Positions 10,630-63,873 of a stretch of DNA of 64,000 nt are shown here, piece after piece. A program made the translations under genes and the position numbers. Origin of the DNA: Parafrankia sp. EUN1f. GTDB lineage: Bacteria; Actinomycetota; Actinomycetes; Frankiales; Frankiaceae. Within the stretch, counting starts at the first letter, position 1, and each line of letters starts with the position of its first letter. The DNA lies in the NCBI RefSeq assembly GCF_000177675.1, contig NZ_ADGX01000008.1, positions 1 to 64,000 on the forward strand, read 5' to 3'. The notes below the pieces were generated by a model that ran no database searches, was not told where the DNA came from, and saw only the letters and a list, made by a program, of their open reading frames with translations.

Positions 10630-12852
10630 TCAGGGTTCCTGAGCGGGGTCCTCCAGCGGCTCCATCGCCGGCTCAAGATCGAGCGCCGGTTGTTCCTGCC
10701 GCTCTTCTACCTCCCACTTCTCCTGCGTCTGCTGTTGCTCCTGCTTCTCACGCTGCTCCTGTGCCTGCTGTTTTTCCAGCGCTTCCTGCGCACCGGCCTC
10801 CGCCGCGGCCACGATCGCCGCCAGATCTGGCGGCGGCGGCAACGCCTGCGGCGTCGGTAACGGAAGCGGATCCGCGGGGGCGCTGGAATTCGCCGACGTC
10901 GACGCGGGTGGGGCGCCCGAGCCCCGCGCACCCGTCCGGCGCGTGCCCGACTGGCCACCTTGGGCCGAGGGCCGCCGAGGCGGTGCGGCGGAGACGGGAG
11001 AGCCTCCGGCCGGGCCGCCGGCGGACGCCGCCGCCGGCCTGGTGGTCGCCGAGGTCGTGACCGCTCGCACCGGACCAGACGGTGAGTCCGTACCACTTCC
11101 GCTTCCGCCCGCCGCGGACGCACCTGCGGAACGTGACGCGGGCCGAGAGGCCGACTTCGGCTTCGATGGCCGGTCCGGCATGGCCCGCCAGCCGAGGCAC
11201 GACTTGCAACTGCATTCGGTCACGCCCAGCGGCAGGCGGTCCATGCGCCACCGAATGTTGTCCACAACCCCGCCGTCGTTCACCCAGACACCGTTGGCGA
11301 CGAAGTTCACCAGATGGGTGGCCAGCTCGACCGGCGCCCAGTTGCTCTCGCACAGCACGTCGAAGACTTTTTTGTGCAGTTCGGCGAAGTCCTCGGCCGG
11401 GCAGCGCAGCATGTTCGCGAGGATGTCGATCACCTGGCGGGTGGCCGTACGGATCTCCTCCATGGCGGGATCCGGTTCGGGCTCCGGCTCACGCTCGGCC
11501 TCGGCCTCCGCCTCGCGATCGGTCTCCGCCTCGCGATCGGTCTCCGCCTCGCGATCGGTCTCCGCCTCGCGATCGGTCTCCGCCTCGCGATCGGTCTCCG
11601 GCTCGGGGTCCGGCTCCGGCTCGGGGTCCGACCCGGGCGGCTGCCCGCCCGACTCGATCGACGACCCGAGTGCTACCGGGCCGGATACCAGCACGGCACT
11701 GCCACCGTCTTCGGCTCGCTGGGTCTCCGCCGCTCGCGGCGCGTCGGCCAACAGCGACGTCGGACCGGCGAGCGGCGGACCAGCATTGGTTTGTGGCTCG
11801 GTGTCTGCTCCCGCGCCGAACGTCACCGCGCCGACCGACGAACCGCCGGCCGTGACCGCCGGCGTCGGGTCCCCCACGACTGGCGAACCGCCGGTCGACG
11901 CCGCATACCCGGCCAGGCCGGCCGAGCCGGAGACCGCGTGCAGGTGCCCGGCCGCAGCAGGCCCGGGCTGGCTCCCCGGCGCCGGGACCACAGCGGCGCC
12001 CGCCGAGCCGAAGGGCACGTAGGCGGTCTCGCCGACAGCGGCGGCGCGCTCGTCGTAGTTGGTATCGGGCCCCGCCGCCGAACCGGTCGGAGCGGCAGCA
12101 CCACGCCCCACGGTGGCGGACGACTGCATGGCCGCCGCACGCGGGTCCGTCACAGCCGCCGGCTCGAGGTTTCGCGGCTTGCGACGGACCCGGACGACCC
12201 CACGGCCAGCCGAACTGTACGTCGCACGCTTGCGACGCCGTAGCAGCGCCGGCCGCTCGGCCGGCGTGCCCGTGGGGAAGTCATCCTCCAGGGGCGGCGC
12301 AGCCTGGATCGAAGGCCGAGGCGACGCCGCAGCCTGACCCGACGGCGTGGTCGACTCCGCTCGGCCGGGATCCGCGACGCCCTCGGCCGGACCGGGCTCG
12401 CCAGCCGCGCCGAGGCCAGCACCCGAACCGGATCCGACAGCCGGACCGGCGAGGGCGATCTCCCCTGCCTGCGCGACCATGCTCGGCACGCTCAGCAGGT
12501 ACCGTGCCGGCCGGCCCGCCGCAGGACGGATGATCGTCACCAGCCAGCCCTTGGCACGCAGGGCCGACAGCTGGCGCTGGGAGTGGGTGCGGCTGAAGTT
12601 GGTCATCCCGCAGAGGTCCGGAAGGCCCGGCGAGGCGATGTAGGACCCGCTGGGCGCGGGTGGACCCGCCGGGGTGGCAAGGTTGGCGACCAAGGTGGCG
12701 ACGAGCCGCATCGCCGGTGTCACGCCCGAGTTGGCGTTGAGGACGGCCTTTCGCCAGGCCTCCACGTCCGCGACGGGTACTCCTCGGTCAGGAGTGCAGA
12801 CCATCACCAGCGCGCCGGGAATGAGCAACTGGGTCGTGGCGTCGGAATCCAC
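10630..12852 (-). CDS. Large disordered protein with N-terminal winged-helix domain
   Basis: The 740-residue protein has an ordered N-terminal region (about 1-130) containing a winged-helix-like segment, with NFSRTHSQRQLSALRAKGWL as recognition helix, and a second ordered block (about 455-560) with two Cys pairs (CSCKSC). The rest is Ala/Pro/Gly/Glu-rich and probably disordered, with an acidic (DREAET)5 repeat before the second block and a Gln/Glu-rich C-terminus. The GTG at 12850-12852 is preceded by GGAGGGAAGGAGG, better than the upstream ATG. It resembles actinobacterial conserved helix-turn-helix proteins of unknown role; DNA binding is an inference. Confidence 0.7.
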   Translation of the reverse strand: MDSDATTQLLIPGALVMVCTPDRGVPVADVEAWRKAVLNANSGVTPAMRLVATLVANLATPAGPPAPSGSYIASPGLPDLCGMTNFSRTHSQRQLSALRAKGWLVTIIRPAAGRPARYLLSVPSMVAQAGEIALAGPAVGSGSGAGLGAAGEPGPAEGVADPGRAESTTPSGQAAASPRPSIQAAPPLEDDFPTGTPAERPALLRRRKRATYSSAGRGVVRVRRKPRNLEPAAVTDPRAAAMQSSATVGRGAAAPTGSAAGPDTNYDERAAAVGETAYVPFGSAGAAVVPAPGSQPGPAAAGHLHAVSGSAGLAGYAASTGGSPVVGDPTPAVTAGGSSVGAVTFGAGADTEPQTNAGPPLAGPTSLLADAPRAAETQRAEDGGSAVLVSGPVALGSSIESGGQPPGSDPEPEPDPEPETDREAETDREAETDREAETDREAETDREAEAEAEREPEPEPDPAMEEIRTATRQVIDILANMLRCPAEDFAELHKKVFDVLCESNWAPVELATHLVNFVANGVWVNDGGVVDNIRWRMDRLPLGVTECSCKSCLGWRAMPDRPSKPKSASRPASRSAGASAAGGSGSGTDSPSGPVRAVTTSATTRPAAASAGGPAGGSPVSAAPPRRPSAQGGQSGTRRTGARGSGAPPASTSANSSAPADPLPLPTPQALPPPPDLAAIVAAAEAGAQEALEKQQAQEQREKQEQQQTQEKWEVEERQEQPALDLEPAMEPLEDPAQEP
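11515..11598. repeat. 18-bp in-frame tandem repeat encoding (DREAET)n
   Basis: GCGATCGGTCTC starts five times at 11515, 11533, 11551, 11569 and 11587, exactly 18 bp apart. On the minus strand it codes for five hexapeptides in an acidic disordered segment. The near-perfect identity of the units suggests recent expansion and likely length variation between strains. Confidence 0.9.
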
Positions 12853-56382: not shown

Positions 56383-56427
56383 TGGTGGAGACGAGGGGAC
56401 TTGAACCCCTAACCCCTGCCTTGCAAA
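56383..56427 (-). tRNA. 3' fragment of tRNA-Ala(TGC): attachment-site scar
   Basis: Read on the minus strand the 45 bases comprise half the anticodon loop (TTTGCAA, anticodon TGC), the 3' anticodon stem, the variable loop, a full T arm with TTCAAGT, the 3' acceptor strand with U at position 70 (the Ala identity pair), A73 and encoded CCA. The 5' half is absent; sequence beyond 56427 is unrelated. This matches the att core left by actinomycete integrative elements that use tRNA 3' ends. Since the tRNA points left, the element extends to the right and the intact gene should lie at its other end. Confidence 0.88.
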
Positions 56428-57268: not shown

Positions 57269-57644
57269 GCGCGTCGGCTCCGCAACAATCGCCGATCATT
57301 TCCGTAAAGAAATCGAACTAGGCAATCTTTCTCCCGGTCAAAAACTACCTACAATTAGAGATATAGCGAAAGACTGGGGAGTCTCACGTCCGACCGCAGA
57401 TAAGGCCATAGCGATTCTCCAGATGGAGAATCTTGTTCGGACTGCGGGGCGAGGTGGGACCACGGTATGCGGCAACGAAGATCGGGTTGATTCGGCGCTG
57501 CTAGTCGAAGTTGATGAAGATCTAGAGATCTCATCCACCGAGATTATTACGGCATCGGAGAGCGTTGCGCGTCAGCTCAACGTCGCCGCCGGGGGGTCAA
57601 TTCTAGTCGTTCGTCTGCGCAGGAAGGCTCGCGACATCGCGTAG
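57249..57644 (+). CDS. GntR-family regulator, truncated
   Basis: The 131-residue protein has a complete GntR winged helix (about 10-75: ATIADHFRKEIELGNLSPGQ, LPTIRDIAKDWGVSRPTADK, reduced to key words) but only the first third of a UTRA ligand domain (about 95-131). Full family members have about 240 residues. The coding region is clearly richer in A and T (for example 57290-57420) than its neighbours, which suggests transfer from another genome. The last 42 bp overlap the 3' end of the convergent gene. Regulators of this kind (KorSA type) repress transfer genes of integrative elements. Confidence 0.75.
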   Translation: MSAESVERVGSATIADHFRKEIELGNLSPGQKLPTIRDIAKDWGVSRPTADKAIAILQMENLVRTAGRGGTTVCGNEDRVDSALLVEVDEDLEISSTEIITASESVARQLNVAAGGSILVVRLRRKARDIA

Positions 57645-58870
57645 GTTATCGAGATAATCGCGCACCTCGGCATTATCGGGATTGCGTTCTTGCAGGACGG
57701 CCGAAAGCTCGCGAGAACACATGAGAAGTGACGGTATCGACTGACGGTCCCCCCGCAGCGCCCTTTGCCCGTACGCGACAGCTTGGTCTACGTCACCTTG
57801 ACGTGCGGCTACGACCCCGAGCGTTATCCTGGCCTCGGCATTTCGCATCGGAGAGCGTTCGCGGCCACTAAAGTCGGTTCCGGCTTCGATTACATGGCGA
57901 GCATAGGTCTCTGCCAGGCGATCTTCGCCAAGGATGCGGTAGCAGTCCATGGCGTAGAAATCGAACTTCGCAGGGTCGACCACGAAGTGGTTTTCAATGT
58001 TGTCGGGGTATGGCAGCTGCTCAAGCATCGATCTCCCCTGATCAAGGGCGACTTCCACTTGACGCCGGTCCCCAATTCTCGCCCACGCTTTTGCCCGTTG
58101 GGCTGCGAGCTGCACCGCCACCCCCGAGTTCGGCGCCACGTGCTGCCCTGCCTCACCGGCGACAATGGTTCCACGATAATCGCCCTGTGTAAGGCAGTAC
58201 CAGGCTTGCATCTCGTGTGCCCACCCAGAGATTTCCGCCTGCCCCGCCTCATTGCCGAGCGACATCGCCGCTCTTCGGGTGGCCTCGGCTCCCCGCTTGT
58301 CTCCTAGGTCGTACTCCACGCAGCCGACCAGAAGTGCTAGCCAGCCTGCTTGCATCAGCAGTTCCCGGTGCTGCGCGAGCGTCAGCCGTTGGTCTAGGAG
58401 GCCGGTAATCCGTCCGAGCCAGGCGCGCCCCTCCACCTGGAGCTGAAGCGACGGCGACGAGGCATATTCGCAACACAGTCGCTCGGTCGTGATTGCCAAT
58501 GCGTCTAGCGTTCCCTGGCCAAGATCGGACATTCTCATTCGAGAGACGATCTCAAGCGTGCCCATTCCCGTGGCTGCCAAAAGATCTCCTCGGACGAAGG
58601 TGATTTCGGTGCTGGAAATAGTGCACCGGTCACTGTACCGAATGTTTTCGCGAGTAGCGGTTTGTAGAAGTCGTCTGGGACGGTTTCCCCTGCCTCCCAG
58701 CGCTTCCAGTTGCGAATCAGATTGCTGTCGCTGGTTAGCGCTGTGGCGCCCGCGTGGCCGCGCAAGGCGCGAACGGCCTCGGCTTGAGACCAGCCCCGGG
58801 CGTCTCGTTCCTCGCGGAGTCTTCGAGCCCAGGCGGGACGTTGACCGTCGGTACTCGAGTCGTTGGCCAC
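57603..58870 (-). pseudogene. XRE-type regulator with TPR-like C-terminus, split by a frameshift
   Basis: The 5' frame (58870 to 58535) encodes an HTH_3-like domain (WARRLREERDARGWSQAEAV...NLIRNWKRWEAG, key words) and then diverges to a stop. Around 58575-58600 the family sequence continues in a second frame as DLLAATGMGTLEIVSRMRM and runs to TAG at 57603, giving a long helical TPR-like region of about 310 residues with repeated ARITLGVVAARQGDVDQAVAY-type units. One inserted base would restore a single protein of about 420 residues. It may be a real mutation, a sequencing error or a rare programmed shift. Confidence 0.75.
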
Positions 58871-60182: not shown

Positions 60183-60487
60183 GCGTCGGGAATCCGTCGA
60201 CGCGGCGGCATCTGTTCGCCGCGTTCGGGGGTCGGTGCGGCTACTGCCTGACCGCCGACGCTGACCACCTCGACCACCTGGTGCCGCGTGCCGCCGGGGG
60301 CACCAACAGCCGGTTCAACCTGATACCGGCGTGCACCCCGTGCGGGACGTCGAAGGGCGCGCTGTCGGTCGCGGAGTGGGTGAGCCGCCGCGCGACCGGC
60401 ACCCCGACGACCGGTGCCGGCGCGCCGGCGCCCCCGGTGTACCGGGTGCCGATGAAGCCGGTGCACCACCAGCCCATCGCGGCCTGA
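60179..60487 (+). CDS. HNH endonuclease family protein
   Basis: The 102-residue protein has a compact HNH fold: CGYC (about 19-22), DHLDHLVPRAAGG with the catalytic His (about 32-36), N in NSRFNLIPAC, and a second CxxC in CTPCGTSKG. Such nucleases cleave or nick DNA and occur often in mobile elements. The start GTG overlaps the stop of the HTH gene, so both are made from one mRNA. A DNA-processing role in the element is inferred. Confidence 0.82.
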   Translation: MSVGNPSTRRHLFAAFGGRCGYCLTADADHLDHLVPRAAGGTNSRFNLIPACTPCGTSKGALSVAEWVSRRATGTPTTGAGAPAPPVYRVPMKPVHHQPIAA

Positions 60488-60798: not shown

Positions 60799-61012
60799 CG
60801 CACCGCACACCCGGACCGCGCACCGGCGCGGCTGCCTGCCTGGTGCGGTCGACGAGGTGCCCCCTCCCCCTTTCCGACGTGCCGCGCGGCACGTCGGAGG
60901 CCTACGGACGGAGTGCGGCGCCGCACCCCGTTCCGGCAGGTCACACACCGAACGTCGGGGGGAGGGGCATCTCATTCCCGGACCCCGTCGCAGCTGCGGC
61001 GGTGTGCGATGA
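60701..61012 (+). CDS. Possible small basic protein coupled to the Rep-like gene
   Basis: A 103-codon frame from ATG 60701 ends in TGA that overlaps the ATG of the ATPase gene (ATGA 61009-61012), a typical coupling arrangement. The product is Arg/Pro-rich and has no recognised domain. The GAGAGG before the start is too close for ideal initiation. Codon bias is only moderate. It may be a real leader gene or chance. Confidence 0.4.
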   Translation: MTHAPNQPAPTRGSVRSVASDRVRQVPPYVGGTAPHTRTAHRRGCLPGAVDEVPPPPFRRAARHVGGLRTECGAAPRSGRSHTERRGEGHLIPGPRRSCGGVR

Positions 61013-62628
61013 CCGGCCCGGACGGCACCCCGACCGAAGCGGGGTCGGTGCGTCATCTGCGCGTCGCCGCGCCGTCGCCTGGCGAGCAGGACGAACCGTT
61101 GCCCGGCATGCCCGCGACCGCCGGCCCGACCGGCGTCACCGGCGAGCAGGAGCAGGCCGACCCCGCGCCGGACGACGGCGGGTCCGGATCGCAGGCGACA
61201 CGGCTGGTCGCGCTGTCTCGTGAGCGGTACCGCGTCGTCCGCGGCAGCGACGGACGCGCCTACGCCGTGGACCTGACCGGCCCGATGATCGCCCTGTCGT
61301 TGCGCGGCAAGGACGGTCTACGCACCCGCCTGGCCACCGCGTACTACGACCGGTACGACTCGACCCCCGGCGGGGGTGCGCTGTCCGACGCCCTGACCGT
61401 GCTCGAAGGCGCAGCCGCCGAGGCCGAACCGGAATCGGTCGGTCTGCGGGTCGCCGCGACCGTCGATGGTGGCGTGGTCCTGGATCTGGGCACCGTGGAC
61501 GGGCGGTGTGTACAGGTCGACGCGCACGGCTGGACCGTGCTGGAACGGTCCCCAGTGCTGTTTCGCCGGACCGCGCTCACCAGCCCGTTGCCGATCCCCG
61601 CGCGGCCCGGTGACCTGGCCGCGTTGCGGGGGCTGGTGAACGTGTCCGAGGCTGGTTTCCGGCTGCTGGTCGGGTGGCTGGTCGCCGCGTTCCTGCCTGA
61701 CATCCCGCACCCGATCCTGGTGCTGACCGGCGAGCAGGGCACGGCGAAGTCCACCGCGGCGCGGATCACGGTCTGTCTGCTGGACCCGTCACCGGCGCCG
61801 TTGCGGTCCGCACCCCGCGACGTGCGGCAGTGGTCGGTCACCGCGTCCGCATCGTGGGTGGTCGCACTCGACAACGTGTCCGGGGTCGCGCCGTGGTTCT
61901 CCGACACCCTGTGCAAAGCCGTGACCGGTGACGGCATGGTCGACCGGGCCCTGTACACCGACGACGACGTCACCGTGATCAGCTACCGGCGCGTGCTGGC
62001 CATGACGTCGATCGACGCCGGTGATCTGGCCGGTGATCTGGCCGAACGGATTCTTCCGCTCGAACTCACCCGGATCGACCCGAGCAGGCGCCGGACCGAT
62101 GCCGAGATTTCCGCCGCCTACGACGCCGCGCGCCCCGCCGTCCTGGCCGCGCTGCTGGACCTGCTGTGCCAGGTACTGGCGGCCCTGCCGGGGGTGCGGG
62201 TAGCGGAGCTGCCCCGGATGGCGGACTTCGCCCGGGTCCTGGCCGCCCTCGACACGGTCACCGGCTGGACCACCCTGCCCGACTACACCACCGCCGCCGC
62301 CGACCTGGCCGCCACGGTCGTGGCCGCCGACCCGGTCGCTGATGCGGTCCGCCGGCACCTGGCCGACGTCCGGGTGTGGACCGGCACGGCGGACGCGCTC
62401 TACGCCCAGCTGCCGGCGCCGGACCCGAGGCCGCGCACCTGGCCGAAGTCCGCGCGCGGGATGTCCGGCGCCGTGCGCCGCGTGGCGCCGGCCCTACGCG
62501 CCCAGGGCGTCACGGTCGACTTCGCCCGGGAAGCGGGCGGCAACCGTGCGCGGCTGATCCACCTGGCCTACGACAGTTCACCGGATCGACCGTCCCGACC
62601 GTCCCAACCGTCCCTAGAGCCCCCGTGA
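61009..62628 (+). CDS. Rep-like P-loop ATPase (primase-helicase type) of the element
   Basis: The 539-residue protein has a disordered N-terminus (1-60), a mixed domain (about 65-200) and a P-loop domain (about 225-400) with Walker A GEQGTAKST (about 241-249), an acidic Walker B-like VVALDNVSG and a downstream sensor region RVLAMTSIDAGDLAGDLAERILPLELTRID. It resembles D5/DUF927-type helicases that drive plasmid and ICE replication. A charged C-terminal part ends in an (SRPSRPSQPS) tail made by the octamer repeats. It is the best replication-initiator candidate here. Confidence 0.75.
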   Translation: MTGPDGTPTEAGSVRHLRVAAPSPGEQDEPLPGMPATAGPTGVTGEQEQADPAPDDGGSGSQATRLVALSRERYRVVRGSDGRAYAVDLTGPMIALSLRGKDGLRTRLATAYYDRYDSTPGGGALSDALTVLEGAAAEAEPESVGLRVAATVDGGVVLDLGTVDGRCVQVDAHGWTVLERSPVLFRRTALTSPLPIPARPGDLAALRGLVNVSEAGFRLLVGWLVAAFLPDIPHPILVLTGEQGTAKSTAARITVCLLDPSPAPLRSAPRDVRQWSVTASASWVVALDNVSGVAPWFSDTLCKAVTGDGMVDRALYTDDDVTVISYRRVLAMTSIDAGDLAGDLAERILPLELTRIDPSRRRTDAEISAAYDAARPAVLAALLDLLCQVLAALPGVRVAELPRMADFARVLAALDTVTGWTTLPDYTTAAADLAATVVAADPVADAVRRHLADVRVWTGTADALYAQLPAPDPRPRTWPKSARGMSGAVRRVAPALRAQGVTVDFAREAGGNRARLIHLAYDSSPDRPSRPSQPSLEPP

Positions 62629-62812
62629 CCTGCACAAACACCCGGGACGGTTGCTCTGCCCGACCGTCCCACCCTGACGGCCAACCGTCCCACCCCCGGG
62701 ACGGTTGGCCACCCCGCCGGGACGGTCGCCCATCCCAACCGTCCCACCCCCGACACCCCGCCTGACCTGCGAAAACACCCGCCGCCGGGACGGTCGGGAC
62801 GGTCGGGACGGT
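62589..62812. repeat. Iteron-like array: 12 copies of ACCGTCCC / GGGACGGT
   Basis: Copies in forward form (ACCGTCCC) start at 62589, 62598, 62607, 62663, 62684 and 62738; reverse form (GGGACGGT) starts at 62644, 62698, 62719, 62787, 62796 and 62805. Each end has a triplet at 9-bp period, left forward and right reverse, so the array as a whole is an inverted repeat. A longer direct repeat, TGACCTGC-N2-AAACACCCG, occurs inside at 62626-62644 and 62763-62781. The first triplet is part of the coding end of the ATPase gene. It is likely an origin or transfer locus. Confidence 0.88.
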
Positions 62813-62843: not shown

Positions 62844-63296
62844 ATGAACCCGACCGCACTGGCCGACCAGCTCACCGCCGCCGCCCGCGACGCACGCCGG
62901 CACCTCGACACCATCGCCGCCGCCGGACACGGCACCGTGCACCCGACCACCGACCCGACCGGGTGGCTGGTTGGCCAGATCCTGCGGACCGTGGCCGCAC
63001 TCACCAGCCCGACCGCCCGCGCCTGCCGCCACGTCACCGCCGCACCCCGCGTTCTGCACGCCGCCGTGTGGGCGCCCGGGATCGTCGTCTGCCCCGCCTG
63101 CGTCCGCCACCTGGCACCCGCGCCCGGTGAGGACAACCGGTGCGACCGGTGCCGGCGGACCGTCGCGCAGCTCCACCCGAGCACGGTGGCACTCGGGCCG
63201 CTCCTGATCGGCTACGGGCTGTGCCGCCGGTGCCAGCACACCGCCGGACTCGCCCCGCCCGGAGAGCGGGTAGAGGGGCGCCGCCAACCCCGCTGA
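62844..63296 (+). CDS. Zinc-ribbon-like hypothetical protein of the element
   Basis: The 150-residue protein has a helical N-terminal half and a C-terminal part with CPAC (about 82-85), CDRCRR (about 98-103) and CRRCQ (about 127-131), so up to three metal-binding Cys pairs. It is not a family I can name. The ATG follows GAAGGA. It begins 32 bp after the octamer array and its stop lies in a long palindrome, so it is probably co-regulated with the replication region. Confidence 0.7.
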   Translation: MNPTALADQLTAAARDARRHLDTIAAAGHGTVHPTTDPTGWLVGQILRTVAALTSPTARACRHVTAAPRVLHAAVWAPGIVVCPACVRHLAPAPGEDNRCDRCRRTVAQLHPSTVALGPLLIGYGLCRRCQHTAGLAPPGERVEGRRQPR

Positions 63297-63327: not shown

Positions 63328-63383
63328 CCCCGACGCTAGGCCGACGCCGCCGGCGGTAGCCCCCGAACGTCACGCACAGCGAA

Positions 63384-63438
63384 GGGATGCGCCAAGGGAG
63401 GCCACCCACCCGAAGGGAGTTCTCCCTTCCCGCATCCC
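63384..63438. repeat. Nested inverted repeats
   Basis: Outer arms GGGATGCG (63384-63391) and CGCATCCC (63431-63438) enclose an inner hairpin GAAGGGAG (63412-63419) with CTCCCTTC (63422-63429) and a 2-base loop. It is followed by pyrimidine-rich tracts on this strand. Confidence 0.55.
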
Positions 63439-63754
63439 TCCCCCTCCCTCCCTCGGCCCACCAGCACGAACACCCCCCGAGGGAGGCACCGACCCGCCTC
63501 CCTCACCCCCGCCAGGACCCCCGAAATCGGCCTTCCAGCAGCTCCCTACCTCCCTCCCTCCCTCGCCGATCACACCCCACTCCGACCACAGAGAGTCACC
63601 GCGCGGGGGTGGTTGGCCGGCAGTGAGTTAGCCCCCGGGGCGACCTCGAAACCAGCCCGCAGAGCAGGCCCCACGACCCCGGCCTCACTCACCCCCGACG
63701 GCCAACCCACCTCACTCCCGCAGACCAGCACACATCTTGATCACCTAACCGTCG

Positions 63755-63839
63755 GGGTTAGAAATCTAACCCGCCACCGCCGATCTAACTCCCCACGATC
63801 ACCCCTGCCGACCCCGCAACGATCACACACCGTGATCGT
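63755..63839. promoter_or_regulatory. Two sets of operator repeats before the last gene
   Basis: Set one is GGGTTAGA-AA-TCTAACCC (63755-63772) with additional TCTAAC at 63784-63789 and CTAACC just upstream near 63745. Set two is ACGATCAC at 63795-63802 and again at 63819-63826, the latter paired with GTGATCGT (63832-63839) across 5 bp. Together they suggest two different regulators controlling the following genes. Confidence 0.6.
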
Positions 63840-63873
63840 CCGGGCGTCCGCCCGACCCCCGAGGGACACCGTC

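Follow-up and report, generated by a model that had tools for sequence, protein, structure and literature searches.

The integrative element and its initiator gene

The window, by which we mean the whole 64,000-bp stretch of DNA analysed, ends within a 9.37-kb integrative element (56384-65748) that continues past it on the 100,707-bp contig. The features of the element, including the octamer array at its centre of interest, are as follows.

56384-56427, + strand: attL, a 44-bp direct repeat of the 3' part of tRNA-Ala(TGC)
60200-60487, + strand: ORF resembling HNH endonucleases, located 5' of rep, with its start not fixed (PF01844, E 1.5e-7)
61009-62628, + strand: RepA-type initiator ATPase with an SF3/D5-like helicase fold (pFP11 homology, AlphaFold model, fold match)
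62332-62571, + strand: codons of the C-terminal winged-helix domain (residues 442-521), the proposed octamer reader (AlphaFold model, octamer correlation)
62589-62614, + strand: left triplet, three ACCGTCCC at a 9-bp period, inside the coding end of repA
62626-62644, + strand: conserved element 1, TGACCTGCACAAACACCCG, whose TGA is the repA stop codon
62644-62745, both strands: six inner octamers (-62644, +62663, +62684, -62698, -62719, +62738), dyad at about 62694.5
62763-62781, + strand: conserved element 2, TGACCTGCGAAAACACCCG, whose end lies shortly ahead of the right triplet
62787-62812, - strand: right triplet, three inverted octamers with a 9-bp period, forming a dyad with the left triplet around 62700.5
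62844-63296, + strand: Cys-rich zinc-ribbon-like ORF (weak DZR_2 match, E 0.35)
contig 64070-64465: excisionase (xis)-like HTH protein
contig 64462-65682: tyrosine integrase (PF00589, E 2.9e-16)
contig 65705-65748, outside the window: attR, the second 44-bp copy

Beyond the array the element continues with the excisionase-like and integrase genes and then reaches tRNA-Ala(TGC). Among the element ORFs scanned, several of which belong to no family, we recognised neither a gene of the FtsK/SpoIIIE/TraB type nor phage-induced repressor, packaging or interference genes. A Prim-Pol gene is absent from the element; the genome has two, neither of them on contig NZ_ADGX01000008.1. On the minus strand, two overlapping frames at 57603-58870 encode sequences that resemble helix-turn-helix and TPR regulators, possibly parts of one frameshifted gene. 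The intergenic region before the excisionase-like gene (63380-63870) contains GGGAGG/CTCCCT and ATCTAAC repeats, which might be arm sites for the integrase or sites for a regulator. Elsewhere in the window, and unrelated to the element, an apparently coding 18-bp tandem repeat of 6.8 copies was found at 11501-11623.

The ATPase is 42% identical over 505 amino acids (E 2e-108) to a protein of plasmid pFP11 which adjoins a Prim-Pol gene and iterons and which, from this gene position, we infer to be that plasmid's RepA. No family of the Pfam, NCBIfam and PHROGs libraries fitted the ATPase, and none convincingly fitted 45 homologues. A search of solved structures gave no match with the single protein sequence and P-loop matches only with a profile. 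The AlphaFold model built from 46 sequences (pLDDT 87) predicts an SF3 core followed by a C-terminal winged helix (residues 442-521). The solved fold closest to this model was the SaPI5 Rep protein (7ola; Z 20.6 over 373 residues, rmsd 6.1), followed by the poxvirus D5/E5 helicases with Z of about 18; PriRep1 bound to double-stranded DNA (7pds) matched residues 52-523 with Z 13.5. The homology to a plasmid RepA and the SF3-helicase fold support the Rep-like nature that the preliminary description had ascribed to this gene.

A dyad of twelve octamers at the 3' end of repA

The segment 62589-62812 contains 12 exact copies of the octamer ACCGTCCC or its complement GGGACGGT in 224 bp. Those on the + strand start at 62589, 62598, 62607, 62663, 62684, and 62738, those on the - strand at 62644, 62698, 62719, 62787, 62796, and 62805. 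The 64-kb window as a whole has 20 copies, 12 of which lie in these 224 bp, compared to 5.9 expected for the whole window. Of 1,000 shuffles of the surrounding kilobase that preserved dinucleotides, none gave any 8-mer more than 5 times within 224 bp. Two octamers at 9-bp distance (ACCGTCCCNACCGTCCC) occur at a single place in the 9.35-Mb genome, the array itself; the similar counts elsewhere in the genome that the preliminary description had named as evidence against a special system were not found for this pair. The 12 copies, the strict 9-bp triplets of opposite orientation at the outer edges and the six singles between them were all recovered as that description had given them. The left triplet forms the last codons of the ATPase gene (protein end ...DRPSRPSQPSLEPP*), as had also been proposed.

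A point absent from the preliminary description is the overall symmetry of the array. Reverse complementation leaves the orientation string +++-++--+--- unchanged, so that the sites form an exact dyad with six in each half. The three outer pairs, that is the triplets, are centred at 62700.5 and the three inner pairs at 62694.5. The longer direct repeat said to lie inside the array is real: TGACCTGCNNAAACACCCG occurs at 62626 and at 62763, within the two conserved elements listed above. The array has a GC content of 73% and no AT-rich core.

This nested palindrome might alternatively be a structured RNA or DNA element, acting as a hairpin, a terminator or a stem-loop origin like that of pRN1. 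A single strand of the array folds far better than shuffled sequences (z -8.1), and the origin of pRN1, which is served by an initiator with a C-terminal winged helix, needs a stem-loop of ~100 bp behind the gene (PMC4234260). However, a hairpin requires neither an 8-bp word at a 9-bp direct period nor single copies in both orientations, and no T-run as expected for a terminator was found on the + strand of the array. We consider this explanation very unlikely as an account of the array, while a hairpin could coexist with a function as iteron origin.

Facing arrays beside homologous genes

A blastn search of the array DNA against plasmids yielded no useful match, which is expected if the octamer word changes between elements. 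The architecture was compared in homologues comprising 68 loci in genome contigs plus plasmids and viral contigs. At the 3' ends of the homologous genes, 619 matches with a period of 9 bp were counted in 56 of 67 loci, compared to 69 matches in 30 of 67 gene bodies; other periods were much weaker at the 3' ends, the next being 18, 12, and 21. When two or more copies at 9 bp had to be followed by two or more inverted copies, again at 9 bp, with one mismatch allowed, such facing pairs were present at the 3' ends of 33 of 71 loci, compared to 2 of 69 gene-body controls and 0.1 in shuffled sequences; the other 38 of the 71 loci failed this strict test. Both complete triplets were found at 12 of 71 loci (gene-body controls, 0 of 69; shuffles, 0.0). 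These loci are not independent of each other, the Nocardiopsis loci for example forming a clade, and the counts are no phylogenetic test.

A close counterpart is a twin element from another genome of the family (G003, complete, 5.43 Mb), where it is inserted in tRNA-Gly between 49-bp repeats. Its RepA is 87% identical to that of the window, and the twelve sites follow in the same order with near-identical spacing (L006). It carries a Prim-Pol gene (L097) and an ORF similar to the HNH-like ORF (L006/L097). In Actinospica (L026) the order of the 12 sites is the same and the spacing nearly identical at 59% protein identity. On small circular plasmids, 11 to 12 octamers come after the homologous gene and precede parA. 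The simplest arrays, at L053/L055, consist of just two facing triplets 15 bp apart.

At the same place, homologues from several bacterial phyla and an archaeon have facing arrays of other octamers. The words found were ACCGTCCG in Actinospica and other Frankia, GCCGTCAC in Kineococcus, CTACAGACC in Kineosporia, GCAGCCTCC in Nocardiopsis, TGCGTCAT in a proteobacterium, ACGTTCAC in Comamonas, TAACGTCA in Pyrinomonadaceae, and GTGAGCAT in a thaumarchaeon. The array is thus kept in related elements as an architecture and not as a sequence. A scan of viral contigs for octamer triplets gave a mixed result, with initiators of the same family (L182, L190), D5-type genes (L167, L168), and other matches that were simple, in part collagen-like, coding repeats or unrelated.

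A second ATPase in the same genome as the window (L009, G000 contig C367:58410-59879; L008 in G021) is 48% identical and forms one open frame with a Prim-Pol domain; behind it, another word, GGCTACGC, occurs in 12 to 13 copies with triplets in both orientations. In the Nocardiopsis loci L014-L021 the entire array lies within the ATPase frame, which runs on into a C-terminal zinc-ribbon-like Cys motif. The 12-kb archaeal Methanothrix plasmid pH6Ac (NC_016637.1, L083) encodes an ATPase of the same family and has six copies of GCAAAGTT at 11-bp spacing, located upstream of the gene instead of behind it.

The preliminary description had also considered a cis-acting transfer locus of the clt type, which would be recognised by a TraB/FtsK translocase. 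The clt sites of Streptomyces plasmids contain short repeats and can overlap the end of a tra gene, as in pWTY27 (PMC3583192). Against this, no FtsK/SpoIIIE gene was recognised among the element ORFs scanned, and in the homologues the array goes with the 3' end of the initiator gene, even on small plasmids, whose array is situated between repA and parA. We regard a transfer function as highly improbable, and the assignment as clt was rejected since no adjacent TraB/FtsK gene was found among the element ORFs scanned.

The same layout was observed with two further types of initiator. Facing 9-bp arrays were present at the 3' ends of 6 of 17 DUF3631/RepAM loci and of 8 of 16 DUF3987 loci, some of the latter being near-duplicates. 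The RepAM genes of L120, L133, L134, and L135 end in such arrays. In the DUF3987 loci L146/L155/L156, facing triplets (GCGTTGG) occupy the last codons, and in L146 the whole array is coding (VGRVGSVG...NATDATDA). No sequence similarity to the RepA of the window was detected in the C-terminal part of the RepAM protein of L120, and the layout is therefore either older than several initiator families or convergent among them. RepAM has been predicted to be a rolling-circle initiator (PMC3218068). Theta initiation would be the better match for a facing iteron dyad, and if the RepAM/DUF3631 origins share the format, the rolling-circle assignment deserves to be tested again.

Candidate readers of the octamer and of a second element

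Across 28 loci, octamer similarity followed the identity of the winged helices when the AAA core was controlled for (partial Mantel r 0.46, permutation p 0.0005). The control domains showed no such relation (N-terminal domain, -0.07; middle helices, 0.09). After close relatives had been dropped, the correlation with the winged helix was 0.37 to 0.40; the recognition helix alone gave a weak correlation (partial r 0.14, p 0.06). Some of the octamer assignments behind these values were manual, and phylogenetically the loci are not independent of one another. As winged helix and array are adjacent, recombination carrying both is the remaining alternative that could mimic co-evolution. From the sequence comparison, the octamer is apparently read by the C-terminal winged helix of the neighbouring helicase, supporting the earlier proposal that the adjacent ATPase serves the array.

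The Cys-rich protein had been named as the other possible partner. The twin element L006 retains only a truncated remnant of its gene and has an intact array, and most homologous arrays have no Cys-rich neighbour. The protein was therefore dropped as octamer reader and is considered accessory, not a conserved partner of the array.

The correlation with the winged helix also bears on the possibility that the array is a selfish or slippage-driven repeat expansion without function. Slippage can produce tandem 9-bp copies in coding DNA, and some of the viral-contig matches to octamer triplets were collagen-like coding repeats of this simple kind. It does not account for the exactness of the dyad, the inverted copies, the return of arrays with unrelated words at the same place beside homologous genes or the relation to the winged helix, and we attach almost no probability to it.

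A second conserved sequence, TGAMCWG (TGA(A/C)C(A/T)G), represented in the window array by conserved element 1, was observed 33 times over 42 arrays compared to 4.3 expected. It was found at 21 loci, all actinomycete. It was not found in the non-actinomycete arrays and is thus not a general component. In the closest relatives it lies 9 to 11 bp after the left triplet and ~22 to 24 bp before the right triplet. TGAMCWG/TGACCTGC elements were also present in four of the six RepAM arrays. As the element remains constant while the octamer changes and is common to unlike initiators, it may have a reader of its own, and our guess is a primase start site or a host factor. A Prim-Pol is carried by the twin element and by related plasmids.

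Proposed origin function and comparison with known systems

A dyad array at the 3' end of an initiator gene supports the iteron-origin architecture suggested by the preliminary description, and we regard 62589-62812 as very probably the iteron replication origin of the 9.37-kb element, judging from sequence. It is somewhat more probable than not that the origin loads two facing Rep hexamers, a head-to-head geometry that would suit twelve sites with six per half-dyad. In the proposed sequence of events, the element would first be excised by its integrase and RepA would then be made from the element's gene. RepA would bind the octamers via its C-terminal winged helix, with six sites per half-dyad and the facing triplets as anchors. 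Two hexamers would assemble head to head and open the DNA between them, whereupon bidirectional (theta) replication would start. As the array has 73% GC, no AT-rich core and a strong tendency of its single strands to fold, melting may occur by helicase action or by cruciform extrusion. The TGACCTGC elements would have another reader, perhaps a primase or a host factor. Octamers and winged helix would jointly drift or be exchanged, so that every element acquires an origin code private to it.

In iteron plasmids, the iterons frequently serve in handcuffing as well. The array might accordingly be bound by RepA or a regulator for copy-number control, autoregulation or incompatibility only, with the true origin elsewhere in the element; the lack of an AT-rich core inside the array and the presence of repeats in the intergenic region at 63.4-63.8 kb would agree with this. 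However, the minimal arrays of L053/L055 and of DUF3987 loci are two facing triplets around a short spacer, which suits helicase loading, and SaPI/PICI origins lie at the same place (PMC6092414). A purely regulatory array is therefore considered unlikely, and we retain its interpretation as the origin.

We see an even chance that the finding is a more general one. The layout of facing octamer triplets with 9-bp period, placed where the initiator gene ends, would then be an origin format of at least three mobile-element initiator families in several bacterial phyla and archaea. The word would be a private code that changes fast and is recognised by the C-terminal winged helix, and each half-origin, with six sites (12 for the complete form), would load one hexamer of a head-to-head pair. 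The array provides a sequence signature by which origin and initiator can be located in mobile elements that lack annotation, the initiators being a family for which Pfam, NCBIfam and PHROGs have no matching model. The natural variation of words and winged helices offers a way to learn a DNA-recognition code and to make compatible actinomycete vectors.

Among known systems, the Streptomyces theta replicons pFP11, pFP1, and pWTY27 are similar in that iterons in both orientations adjoin rep. Binding of RepA to iterons was shown for pWTY27 (PMC3583192), and according to a statement in the same source the RepA proteins of pFP11 and pFP1 bind their own iterons. pFP11 has the homologous presumed RepA (42% identity), and a Prim-Pol belongs to the module of the relatives. 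In contrast, the pFP11 iterons (GGGACGCAC) have a spacing of ~11 bp and lie ~550 bp behind the gene, with no facing triplets at the immediate 3' end of repA, whereas the window element has 9-bp triplets overlapping the gene end, a dyad of 12 sites and no Prim-Pol gene in its module.

The Rep protein of SaPIs uses its C-terminal domain to bind iterons located immediately 3' of its gene and seems to do so as two hexamers (PMC7581432). PICIs have an origin with two iteron sets at the 3' end of rep, an organisation claimed for no other bacterial replicon (PMC6092414). Shared with the window element, whose array starts in the last repA codons, are the origin directly 3' of the initiator helicase, the two facing iteron sets and the SF3 fold with a C-terminal DNA-binding domain (PMC6092414, PMC7581432). 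The SaPI/PICI iterons, however, flank an AT-rich region, whereas the array of the window is 73% GC and has no such core; the window element also differs in its initiator family and in its Frankia-type host, and no phage-satellite genes were recognised among the ORFs scanned. For want of an AT-rich core, the assignment as PICI was rejected. AICEs resemble the element in the tyrosine integrase and the 44-bp att repeats in tRNA-Ala, but no Tra protein of the FtsK/SpoIIIE type was seen among the element ORFs scanned, and this assignment was rejected as well.

More distant parallels exist. The alpha/crr system of phage P4, compared at the level of published descriptions, has a primase-helicase whose C-terminal winged helix binds short iterons (PMC4234260). 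The pRN1 origin shares the initiator with a C-terminal winged helix and an inverted structure behind the gene that is conserved in structure and not in sequence (PMC4234260); in contrast to the array, no iterons are reported for it. The RepAM/DUF3987 initiators of actinobacterial elements share the facing 9-bp arrays at the 3' end, whereas RepAM differs in the lack of similarity noted for L120 and in its predicted rolling-circle mode (PMC3218068).

The claim that facing 9-bp triplets are unfamiliar in actinomycete integrative elements holds, as no description of them was found in the accessible literature. The broader claim of an undescribed system stands in part. RepA-iteron pairs in Streptomyces (PMC3583192) and two-set origins at the rep 3' end in PICIs (PMC6092414) are already known. 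New, as far as the accessible literature shows, are the occurrence of this format outside PICIs, which contradicts the claim that no other bacterial replicon is organised in this way (PMC6092414), its form as a 9-bp dyad, the exchange of words following the winged helix, and its presence in three initiator families.
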